Notes under the pieces: model-generated
Seen by the model: only the letters and a program-made list of their open reading frames with translations
Databases searched by the model: none
What the model was told of the DNA's origin: nothing
In this document: positions 14,517-29,996 of the stretch, piece by piece
Layout of the letters: the number at the start of each line of letters is the position of its first letter
How positions within the stretch are numbered: position 1 is the stretch's first letter
Position numbers and translations under genes: made by a program
DNA from: Solibacillus merdavium
GTDB lineage: Bacteria > Bacillota > Bacilli > Bacillales_A > Planococcaceae
Length of the DNA: 64,000 nt
Assembly (NCBI RefSeq): GCF_014836935.1
Contig: NZ_JACSPW010000001.1
Span: 496,001-560,000 of the forward strand
Direction of reading: 5' to 3'

Positions 14517-14574
14517 AATGTAGTTTGCATAAAATTTTTTATATGCTAAAGTGATAAAGACAAATTGAATAAAT

Positions 14575-14740
14575 TTGCAGGAAAAAGATGCATGATGCAT
14601 AAATGGGAATTCGGTGTAAATCCGAAGCTATATCCGTAACTGTAAGCGTTGATGAAAATAAGTGTAATACCACTGCTAATATAGCGGGAAGGTACTTGTG
14701 AGTAAAGTGAAACGCAGAGCCAGGAGACCAATCTTTTTCT
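14575..14740 (+). ncRNA. Cobalamin (B12) riboswitch aptamer
   Basis: The conserved B12 box GAGCCAGGAGACC lies at 14717-14729. Upstream are the other hallmark elements: GGGAATTCGGTG..AATCCGAAGC (about 14603-14629), CCGTAACTGTAAGCG (14634-14648), CCACTGC...GCGGGAAGG (about 14670-14692). A Rho-independent hairpin follows at 14829, so control is by termination when B12 is bound. Outer limits are estimates. Confidence 0.95.
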
Positions 14741-14828
14741 TATCGTAACATCCCTCTTCGGAATTAAAGAGAATGTACGGCAATCACTGATCGAATGAGC
14801 GTTTTGCACCCTTTTATTGATTTTTGAA

Positions 14829-26917: not shown

Positions 26918-26953
26918 ATACGATGATTCATCAAGATTAGGAAGGTGCTTTTC

Positions 26954-27655
26954 GTGTTATTAATGGAAAAATATTTTTATGACGGGCAATTTTTGAAATG
27001 CTATGAAGAGTCTACACGTCAGTTACAGGACGGCAATGACGCATTAGCTACACAATTTTTAAATTTATTTAAAAAATACGAGTATGAAAATTTCCCTAAG
27101 CCGACTGAGAAACATACGCAAAGTATTGAACGTGCCAATGAAAGCTATGAAGAAAATGATGAACTAGAACAATTGCGAAGCATTAAAGACGAACAGGAAT
27201 TTTCAGCTAAAGTGAAGCAGCTTGAGCATGATGCACGAACAGCCGATGATAAACGGAAAGCACAGTCGTTTTATGTACAAGGTCATTTGTTTTTAATGGC
27301 ACATCAATATGATGAAAGTGTTCATTGTTTTATCGAGGCAGTAAAGCATAATCCGAATAAAGCACTTTATTACGGAATAGCAGGTCAGACGATGAACCGG
27401 TTTAATTGGTCTCCTTTTGAGATAATGGTTTACATAGAACGGGCCATTGATCTGGATCCGGATAACGCACGCTGGTATTGGAACAAGGCACTTGTATTAA
27501 CAAGACTTTATAAAGACTTAAATGCTGAGCCATTTTTAGAGCAGGCACTCGTTACTATTGAAAAGGCAATCGAGACTTGCCGTGAAGACCAAGCTTCACT
27601 TCGCAATGGCATTGATTCAACATTAGAAAACTTAAAAGAATATCTTTTCAATTAG
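26954..27655 (+). CDS. Tetratricopeptide-repeat protein
   Basis: 233 residues from GTG 26954, 8 nt after TAGGAAGG; an in-frame GTG 9 nt earlier overlaps that site. The N-terminal about 90 residues are charged (EENDELEQLRSIKDEQEF). Two TPR-like units follow: SFYVQGHLFLMAHQYDESVHCFIEAVKHNPNKALYY (about 95-130) and WSPFEIMVYIERAIDLDPDNARWYWNKALVLTRL (about 141-174). No enzymatic domain; probably a cytoplasmic scaffold. No recognised orthologue. Confidence 0.75.
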   Translation: MLLMEKYFYDGQFLKCYEESTRQLQDGNDALATQFLNLFKKYEYENFPKPTEKHTQSIERANESYEENDELEQLRSIKDEQEFSAKVKQLEHDARTADDKRKAQSFYVQGHLFLMAHQYDESVHCFIEAVKHNPNKALYYGIAGQTMNRFNWSPFEIMVYIERAIDLDPDNARWYWNKALVLTRLYKDLNAEPFLEQALVTIEKAIETCREDQASLRNGIDSTLENLKEYLFN

Positions 27656-27722
27656 GAGAGGCGTACAGTTGCTCGCTGTAAAAAACATTAGATACAATTA
27701 AATGATCTGAAATAAAATGGGG

Positions 27723-27760
27723 CTCACGAACGGTTTCAATAAGTAGGTTCGTGAGTTTTT
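27723..27760 (+). terminator. Terminator of the TPR gene
   Basis: CTCACGAAC (27723-27731) pairs with GTTCGTGAG (27747-27755) and is followed by T5. Confidence 0.82.
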
Positions 27761-27773
27761 CTTGTTAAAAAAG

Positions 27774-27958
27774 TTCTAATATCGGTCCGTGATTTTCTAA
27801 TAAACTAAAAAAAGTTCTAATATAGTTTTGATCTTCTAATATATCTCCGAGATTTTCAAATAAAGGTATCAGATATTCAAATATCTTCCCCAGAAGTTCT
27901 AAAATCCCCACCGAATGTTCTAATAAACTGTGAAAACTTCTAATATCGTAAAACGAGA
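27774..27958. repeat. Nine-unit phased TTCTAATA repeat array
   Basis: TTCTAATA or a one-base variant (TTCAAATA twice, TTCTAAAA once) begins at 27774, 27795, 27815, 27834, 27855, 27876, 27897, 27918 and 27938: spacings 21, 20, 19, 21, 21, 21, 21, 20. The rest of each unit is variable but tends to TCnnnCCnnGAtT. No coding frame. Together with the hairpins on each side this accounts for the 362-base gap 27656-28017. Function unknown. Confidence 0.85.
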
Positions 27959-27960
27959 AA

Positions 27961-28008
27961 AAAAGCTATCTAAAAAGGACTTAAAAATCCCTTCAAGACA
28001 GCCTTTTC
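27961..28008 (-). terminator. Probable terminator of the lia-type operon
   Basis: On the minus strand AAAAGGCTGTCT...AGATAGCTTTT forms an imperfect hairpin (one bulge, G-U pairs) followed by T7, 10 nt after the stop of the last gene. Confidence 0.6.
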
Positions 28009-28017
28009 CACTATAAG

Positions 28018-28332
28018 TTATTTCTTCTTTTTGTCCCTCACAAATGCAAACACTATTAATCCAACTTGTATCACGACGATTGCAATAAAAAAGTAAAAAT
28101 TCTTCGATGAACCGACTAAATTAAGTTCATCTGCCAAAATGCCTTCAATTGACTGCAATTGTGCACTTAGCAAAATAATTAATGCACCAATAAATAACAT
28201 GATTTTAGGATTTATTGCAAAGCGCAGCAGCACAATAATGAACAGTGCTGAAAAAATCAGCAATAGTGTGAAGAGGGGATCCAATAATGTAAGGGTCCCA
28301 TCCTGTGCAAATTTTTCATATGTGAATGTCAC
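28018..28332 (-). CDS. Small membrane protein at the end of the lia-type operon
   Basis: 104 residues, three predicted membrane helices (about 19-36, 42-59, 79-97) and a KKKK tail. It starts 16 nt after liaR with AAGGAGG as binding site. I do not recognise the family. Location suggests a role in, or regulation by, the envelope-stress system. Confidence 0.7.
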   Translation of the reverse strand: MTFTYEKFAQDGTLTLLDPLFTLLLIFSALFIIVLLRFAINPKIMLFIGALIILLSAQLQSIEGILADELNLVGSSKNFYFFIAIVVIQVGLIVFAFVRDKKKK

Positions 28333-28348
28333 CGTATAACAAACCTCC

Positions 28349-28978
28349 TTACTTAACTAAGCCGTTTTGAAATGCATAAACGACTGCTTGTGTACGATCC
28401 TGTACTTCGAGCTTGCTTAAAATATTGCTTACATGTGTTTTTACCGTTTTTAGTGCAATAAATAGCTCTTCGGCAATTTCCTGATTGGCAAGACCCCTAG
28501 TCATACACAATAACACTTCCATTTCCCGGTCTGTTAAATGATCGTGCAAAGCAGGTACAGTACCGCGCATACGGGCCATTACTTTTGTCGTAGCTTCAGG
28601 CTCAAGTACTGTTTCACCAGCCATCGTTTTACGGATTGCTTCAGCAATTTGTTTTGCGTTACTCGTTTTCAGTATATAACTGACAGCCCCTGCTTCAAGT
28701 GCCGGATATAATTTGTCGTCATCAATAAAGCTTGTGACAATCATTACTTTCGCTTGCGGCCACTGCGCTAAAATCTCGGCTGTCGCTTCCGCCCCTGTTT
28801 TTATTGGCATAACATTATCCATCAAGACAATATCAGGTTTTAATGATAGCACCTTTTCAACCGCTTCCTCACCGTTTGTTGCTTCTCCGATGACTTCGAT
28901 ATCAGGCTGTGCTGACAAATAGGCAGCGACACCGATACGTACCATTTCGTGATCATCTACAATGACAACTTTAATCAT
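28349..28978 (-). CDS. liaR: Response regulator LiaR/VraR type
   Basis: 209 residues, NarL/FixJ class. The receiver has acidic pair VDDHE (about 7-11), phosphorylation Asp in IVLMDNVMP (about 54), Thr in IVTSF and Lys in LKTSN (about 105). The C-terminal LuxR helix-turn-helix runs LTDREMEVLLCMTRGLANQEIAEE (about 143-166) through VKTHVSNILSKL. Overlaps the kinase gene by 8 nt. With the kinase and LiaF it would sense cell-envelope damage. Confidence 0.9.
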   Translation of the reverse strand: MIKVVIVDDHEMVRIGVAAYLSAQPDIEVIGEATNGEEAVEKVLSLKPDIVLMDNVMPIKTGAEATAEILAQWPQAKVMIVTSFIDDDKLYPALEAGAVSYILKTSNAKQIAEAIRKTMAGETVLEPEATTKVMARMRGTVPALHDHLTDREMEVLLCMTRGLANQEIAEELFIALKTVKTHVSNILSKLEVQDRTQAVVYAFQNGLVK

Positions 28979-29996
28979 TTAATTGTTCCTCCTTTTTGAT
29001 CGGAACTTTTACTTCTACAATGGTCCCTTCATTTGGAACGGAGACGATTTTATACGTACACCCAATTTCGACAGCTCGCTCGGCAATATTTCTTAATCCG
29101 TACGAAGATGTTTTGTCGCCATCATTACTAAAACCAAGACCGTTATCCTGAATCCGTAAAATGGCTAACTGATCACGTGCAATTAATAACAGTTCAACCT
29201 CTGTCGCTTTTGCATGCCTTAAAGTATTGGATAATGCTTCTTGTGCAATACGGAATAAATGGTCTTCCTCCGCTTTAGATAAATTGATTTCCTCTATTTG
29301 ATAATCAATATTAAAGTAGACTTTTTCCTGTAATTCGACAATTAAATCTTCCAATCCTTCTGCCAGACTTTTATTGTGCAAAGCAATTGGGCGTAAATGC
29401 AGGAGCAGTGCCCGCATTTCAAGCTGGGCTTGCTGGACAACCTTTTCTACTTGAGCCAGCTGTTTTTGGGCGTGCTCGTCTTGCTGCTGTTCTGTCAGGG
29501 CAGATAATAGCAAGGAAGCTGCAAAAAGCTGTTGCGATACGGAATCATGGAGCTCACGTGCTAGACGTTGACGTTCTGCAAGAAGCCGCTCCTGAACGAT
29601 TGCATCATTTGTTTCGACCTTCTCATGTGAAAGCCGTTGCAGAGAAGCACGCTGGGTATCAATTAATTCGTTGGCATCACGCAATGCTTTATTTAAAGAA
29701 CCGTTAGTTTTCTTTAATTTTTGTGCAAAATCAGGTTCTGCAATTTTTTTGACGATCCGTGTCGTCTGATTTTCCTTTATTTTCACGGTGACAGCCATCC
29801 ATAATGCAATGAAGAAGCTAATACCGGTAGCGCTAATGGCGATAATTCCAAGCAATGGAATGTCATAATCAACATTTTCCCATAAAAAGCGCCACGTTTC
29901 TTCTTCTGGCTGTCCAAGTACAAAAATTAGTATATTCATTGTAAAAGAGGCAAAAATTAAAATGAGTACGAAGAATCGAGCAATAAATGCAATCAT
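28971..29996 (-). CDS. liaS: Sensor histidine kinase LiaS/VraS type
   Basis: 341 residues with two N-terminal membrane helices (about 4-26 and 48-69) and only about 20 residues between them, the short-loop intramembrane-sensing type. A coiled linker leads to the HisKA_3 dimerisation helix ARELHDSVSQQLFAA (His about 147), then the ATPase domain with EALSNTLRHA (N box, about 238) and DNGLGF (about 280). Overlaps both neighbours by 4-8 nt, so it is translated with LiaF and LiaR. Confidence 0.9.
   Translation of the reverse strand: MIAFIARFFVLILIFASFTMNILIFVLGQPEEETWRFLWENVDYDIPLLGIIAISATGISFFIALWMAVTVKIKENQTTRIVKKIAEPDFAQKLKKTNGSLNKALRDANELIDTQRASLQRLSHEKVETNDAIVQERLLAERQRLARELHDSVSQQLFAASLLLSALTEQQQDEHAQKQLAQVEKVVQQAQLEMRALLLHLRPIALHNKSLAEGLEDLIVELQEKVYFNIDYQIEEINLSKAEEDHLFRIAQEALSNTLRHAKATEVELLLIARDQLAILRIQDNGLGFSNDGDKTSSYGLRNIAERAVEIGCTYKIVSVPNEGTIVEVKVPIKKEEQLND

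Follow-up and report, generated by a model that had tools for sequence, protein, structure and literature searches.

A dispersed family of helically phased core arrays in intergenic DNA of Solibacillus

The array at the window locus

The window—the whole stretch of 64,000 nucleotides of Solibacillus merdavium DNA that was analysed—contains a 362-bp gap between the end of a TPR-protein gene at 27655 and the end of a minus-strand operon at 28018. This gap holds an array of nine short sequence cores, which is bracketed by two facing intrinsic terminators. The features of the locus are as follows:

26945..27655, plus strand: gene of a TPR-repeat protein, flanking context
27719..27762, plus strand: intrinsic terminator of this upstream gene, just before core 1; hairpin and T-run, predicted at -15.9 kcal/mol
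27774..27945, plus strand: nine-core phased array, 172 bp, spacings 21,20,19,21,21,21,21,20
27774..27781, plus strand: core 1, exact TTCTAATA
27795..27802, plus strand: core 2, exact TTCTAATA
27815..27822, plus strand: core 3, exact TTCTAATA, followed by the family-typical 11-nt linker
27834..27841, plus strand: core 4, exact TTCTAATA
27855..27862, plus strand: core 5, TTCAAATA, one mismatch
27876..27883, plus strand: core 6, TTCAAATA, one mismatch; the form in which this core occurs most often across the family
27897..27904, plus strand: core 7, TTCTAAAA, one mismatch
27918..27925, plus strand: core 8, exact TTCTAATA
27938..27945, plus strand: core 9, exact TTCTAATA
27957..28012, minus strand: intrinsic terminator serving the convergent minus-strand genes, immediately behind core 9; predicted at -20.0 kcal/mol on the reverse strand
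28018..28332, minus strand: small membrane-protein-like ORF without a Pfam match, flanking context
28349-28978, minus strand: LuxR-type response regulator, next after the small ORF, context
28971-29996, minus strand: histidine kinase of the same minus-strand operon, context

Six of the nine cores match TTCTAATA exactly and three carry one mismatch, which confirms on the plus strand the nine core starts from 27774 to 27938 and the 19–21 bp spacing given by a first-pass annotation of this DNA. The extent given there, 27774–27958, is right at its start; the last core itself ends at 27945, and 27958 is reached with its linker included. The linker behind core 3 ends in GATC here and in GATT or GATC in most copies of the family. 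Single cores with up to one mismatch are not enriched within the window (107 matches vs 114 expected), and Tandem Repeats Finder makes no call on the array because the linkers are non-repeating. Elsewhere in the window, at 14569-14750, lies a cobalamin riboswitch (RF00174, 100 bits) that is unrelated to the array.

Family, architecture and placement

The array is a member of a dispersed family of intergenic DNA elements, each of them a phased array of cores. The genome of S. merdavium contains 76 exact pairs of the form core-N11-14-core in about 25 arrays, and the congener G163 contains 410 such pairs, its arrays lying on both strands and all around the chromosome; the reversed pattern, which served as a control, gives 0 in either genome. 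These counts were drawn from pattern searches and targeted sequence stretches. A short-sequence-repeat family had been one of the initial suggestions and is borne out by these numbers; with many other arrays found in this genome and its relatives, the window array is hence not an isolated event.

Among 261 genomes of the bacterial family, 13 carry three-core matches—11 of the 16 Solibacillus genomes, S. merdavium included, and two Ureibacillus species—and the reversed control is 0 in every one. Eight Solibacillus species are array-rich and three congeners bear few arrays; in a tree of the liaRS region, the former make up one supported clade (100/99) and the latter another. Arrays are absent from five of the 16 congeners and from nearly all other relatives among the family genomes searched. 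In a collection of 84,980 species, the named matches include Solibacillus faecavium, S. palustris, Ureibacillus manganicus, and U. acetophenoni, the last two bearing a variant of the array. Most matches in other phyla and in viruses are ordinary tandem repeats whose linkers are nearly identical. Carriage by phages was rejected, as the matches on viral contigs are nearly all tandem repeats whose linkers are identical or near-identical, and a search for carriage on plasmids gave no match. A few short runs of three to five TTCTAATA cores with diverged linkers occur, each of them single, in unrelated genomes (L097, L147, L177, and L103) and may be chance occurrences or decayed tandem repeats. No earlier description of the array family was found in the literature searched.

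Most of these arrays share one architecture. All nine cores are non-palindromic 8-bp direct repeats that point in one direction, and about 140 of the 148 distinct nine-core arrays follow a common spacing of 20/21,20,19,21,21,21,21,20/21, in which the third linker measures 11 nt with few exceptions. Throughout the family, cores 1–4, 8, and 9 are strict and cores 5–7 are looser, with TTCAAATA, TTCTAAAA, and TGCTAATA as preferred variants. Many arrays then carry further blocks in the same direction, usually of four cores spaced 21,21,20, which are separated by gaps of 38, 50, 59–61, 71, 81–82, or 91 bp; all blocks within one intergenic gap share their direction. Extended arrays of this kind, with a nine-core block and four-core blocks, are seen at L189:479-1410, L310, L231, and L216, where gap lengths lie about one helical turn apart and modules of 348–367 bp are tandemly duplicated as a whole. 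A longer mixed array (L048:768-1250, contig C53 of G000) contains a multi-core repeat of about 100 bp that is itself duplicated. In Ureibacillus (L153:5735-6217, L162:239-864, and L114:6970-7400), the same core occurs in four-core blocks with a 40-bp gap, giving each block a super-period of about 103 bp; L114 also has an inverted TAGAA behind core 4.

The first-pass annotation placed every core on the same face of the helix. This holds at about 10.25 bp per turn, where the core offsets are most coherent (mean resultant R=0.90), and is weaker at 10.5 (0.69) because the third spacing is always 19 bp; with this 19-bp spacing and the additional 20-bp spacings, the phase is imperfect. The gaps between blocks likewise favour steps of about one helical turn, as a check on the helical period had been proposed to examine: they prefer about 10.35 bp with p 0.012–0.019 at the level of gap classes, of which only 8 to 13 are independent. 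On a larger set, the optimum at the level of counts is 10.65–10.75 and is dominated by the 81–82-bp class.

Regarding placement, the first-pass annotation described the array as lying between two operon ends. This is the case here, and convergent gaps are enriched in general (15 of 58 array gaps vs 21 of 235 control gaps, p=0.0012) while divergent gaps tend to be rarer (8/58 vs 59/235, p=0.08)—counts that include some orthologous loci of three species and are not fully independent—but arrays also occupy codirectional and some divergent gaps. In codirectional gaps, 13 arrays lie on the same strand as the genes and 22 on the opposite one (p=0.18), which does not amount to a significant strand rule, and the array lies directly behind the upstream gene's terminator in 74% of these cases vs 57% in control gaps. 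The neighbouring genes share no theme in the loci read, and where a partner gene was sought beside the arrays of an array-poor genome, the flanking genes were ordinary.

The arrays do occupy conserved intergenic places, a point on which a check had been suggested. Counterparts of the window array lie in the same gap in the other seven genomes of the rich clade, intact in some, reduced to seven cores in G152 and to four in G154, and elsewhere present in multiplied form; the remaining eight congeners lack a counterpart. In congeners with no array at this locus (L205, L204, L207, and L209), an extra ORF of about 150 codons, missing from the window, separates the TPR gene from the convergent operon, as read by eye. 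Of 399 syntenic gap pairs among the loci fetched, 394 have an array in common—a presence biased upward by fetching loci for their arrays, such that a loss rate is not readable from it—and the orientation, which is free of this bias, is identical in all 394. Dispersed copies with linkers more than 75% identical are rare (0–3 pairs per genome) and tandem copies at one locus reach linker identities of up to 97%. Dispersal is therefore mostly old, and growth is now local.

Core constraint, flanks and candidate explanations

That cores are kept and linkers vary, as was noted at the outset for this one array, applies both within and between arrays. Paralogous arrays show 93% identity in their cores and 41% in their linkers. 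Core divergence amounts to 0.09–0.15 of linker divergence for pairs at linker divergences from 5% to 72% (well-populated bins), which means that cores change at a rate 7–10 times lower than that of linkers, whatever the divergence. As this ratio is low at all divergences, the constraint on the cores is continuous. Along the 21-bp unit, the substitution rate climbs smoothly away from the core and peaks at positions 12–17, a profile that might be read as a periodic footprint.

The arrays are embedded in an unusual base composition. In the rich clade, the flanks of 60–80 bp differ on the two sides, the left one before core 1 being G/T-rich (G 0.30 and C 0.14 near the array) and the right one after core 9 A/C-rich (C 0.32, G 0.11), with the composition switching between linkers 5 and 6—a local GC-skew inversion centred on the array. 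All gene contexts show it, whether convergent, divergent, or codirectional in either sense, and control gaps do not; examples are L189:400-480, L310, L311, and L231. Beyond composition, the two flanks show no complementarity. Terminal inverted repeats were rejected, as was a long stem formed by the G-rich flank with the C-rich one, since an array's own flanks are no more complementary than swapped ones: the folding energy reaches p=0.03 in one of five genomes, and alignment gives none in six. A motif search of the flanks, which included the Bacillus Chi word AGCGG, returned only T-runs and G-runs. Either a mutational trace or a functional requirement could account for the skew.

The tests for an RNA or coding signal are all negative. 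All linker columns were tested against each other for base-pair covariation, and no helix exceeds the row-permutation controls; the apparent top signal, in column 7 of linker 2, was discarded as an artefact of a mostly gapped column. RNA folding energies are no better than those of shuffles on both strands, and Rfam holds no match for the array. Neither strand shows 3-periodicity or stop depletion, and a coding reading was rejected on these grounds; spurious ORFs of about 80–200 codons overlap some arrays. Taken together with the lack of a strand rule, the placement relative to terminators, and the helical phasing, these negative results favour a helically phased protein complex acting at the level of DNA.

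We hence consider it rather probable that the arrays direct a cooperative head-to-tail assembly of protein, which would wrap or coat about 170 bp of intergenic DNA. Each core would be the site for one subunit of a putative sequence-specific DNA-binding protein, and identical subunits would line up head to tail along a single helix face at intervals of two turns, their cooperative assembly leading to a filament or a wrapped complex over this length. In extended arrays, further four-core blocks would join across gaps that keep the helical phase. The first-pass annotation had proposed a cooperative protein-binding or nucleoid-organising site; cooperative DNA binding is the best-supported part of this, and the protein itself and a role in the nucleoid are putative. 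No partner protein was found for the arrays among the loci and the Y1 transposase examined.

The most probable alternative is still unlikely, namely that the arrays are non-autonomous mobile repeats, MITE- or REP-like, with the cores as transposase-binding sites, which expanded in the rich clade's ancestor and have since become mostly inert. Dispersed copies, subfamilies with related linkers, and a few array-free orthologous gaps, one with its right junction exactly at the array edge, would fit such a history; for a comparison of filled and empty sites and of target-site duplications, these few array-free gaps have diverged junctions. However, terminal inverted repeats are lacking (folding energy shows none in four of five genomes, and alignment none in any of six), there are no palindromes, and a RAYT/IS200 partner was rejected because the Y1 transposase domain (PF01797) is absent from several array-bearing genomes (G150, G151, G154, and G155). 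Moreover, closely similar dispersed pairs are few, yet the cores of old orthologous arrays are constrained, unlike those of dead transposon copies. Multi-site operators of a dedicated transcription factor that regulates the adjacent genes are quite unlikely: arrays are intergenic, and direct repeats on one helix face are common for cooperative regulators, but the promoter-bearing divergent gaps tend to be depleted and convergent ones enriched, and neither a common theme of neighbouring genes nor an orientation rule emerges from the loci read.

We regard an RNA element—a 3′ UTR or a rut-like, C-rich unstructured region with a role in termination or RNA stability—as very unlikely. The arrays do adjoin terminators, and C is frequent and G scarce in their right half and right flank, but their orientation is unrelated to gene direction, most lie past the terminator, neither fold nor covariation is seen, and a helical spacing would be unexpected for single-stranded RNA. 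An ordinary decaying tandem duplication, which the first-pass annotation had set against its own reading, is highly improbable despite the recent local copying of whole blocks and the prevalence of such repeats among the matches in other phyla and viruses. It is contradicted by the 7–10-fold difference between core and linker divergence at all ages and by the one irregular spacing pattern common to unlinked arrays; linkers are non-identical within arrays, and gaps are helically phased.

The role of the putative cooperative complex is less certain. Most likely it would be an architectural or insulating site—for a nucleoid domain, or as a supercoil or transcription barrier—rather than a single-gene operator, as the arrays hold no fixed relation to neighbouring genes and prefer gene 3′ ends. 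Any function would be lineage-specific and dispensable in the wider family, given that five of 16 congeners, like nearly all other relatives, have no arrays. More tentatively, the nine-site helically phased array in its dozens of copies might be the seed of a directional wrapped complex marking gene boundaries, and thus part of a lineage-specific insulator or chromatin-anchor system with a putative binding protein—possible, though on balance doubtful. If true, this would be a new class of chromosomal element, and the GC-skew reversal would be its mutational or functional trace. The usual intergenic repeats of bacteria are palindromes or mobile leftovers, whereas here a precise multi-site layout is kept in dozens of places while the DNA between the sites drifts. 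Such fixed sites and drifting linkers point to one protein with long-range cooperative binding, for which the array is an immediate bait. A role as nucleoid organiser or transcription-unit insulator would be directly testable by comparing array-bearing and array-free species within one genus.

Comparison with known systems

REP/BIME elements prefer gene 3′ ends, and the arrays are like them in doing so and in being dispersed, intergenic, and present in many copies. Two papers describe REP/BIME elements as many dispersed intergenic copies with proposed roles in protein binding and supercoiling (PMC2817692, PMC3733652). REP units, however, are RAYT-linked palindromes of 20–40 bp that alternate in orientation within BIMEs, whereas the arrays consist of non-palindromic direct 8-bp cores at 19–21 bp spacing; the hairpin-forming palindromic unit is missing, as the cores are direct, do not covary, and fold like shuffles. 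The terminal inverted repeats of MITEs, and the curated-family match or covarying helices of a structured RNA element in Rfam, are equally absent.

CRISPR arrays share the alternation of short constant units with variable spacers of near-constant length, but their repeats of 23–47 bp are near-identical and their spacers strain-unique, in contrast to an 8-bp core, linkers of 11–13 bp, and a fixed number of nine. Orthologous arrays share their linkers, with identities of up to 0.96 for G000 and G152; the linkers are hence inherited, not acquired. No cas genes stand next to the arrays in the loci read, where the neighbours are ordinary.

Closest in geometry are plasmid systems. ParR oligomerises on the parC repeats with the DNA wrapped around the protein, and the centromere repeat of pSK41 is 20 bp long; one paper reportedly treats ParR specificity (PMC9426499). 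Like this type II partition centromere, the arrays consist of direct repeats about two helical turns apart. However, a plasmid has one parC site, next to parMR, and the arrays occur in dozens of copies on the chromosome, next to ordinary genes and with no adjacent parM/parR operon: the flanking genes, by reading, are unrelated at the window locus, L215, L244, L101, and L155. Plasmid replication iterons are direct repeats of about 17–22 bp whose conserved core lies on one face of the helix; they sit at one origin beside rep, whereas the arrays are dispersed and their linkers drift. The family fails defining features of REP/BIME, CRISPR, and MITE elements and is filed under none of them; its geometry is like that of parC and iteron arrays, and its distribution is like that of BIMEs.
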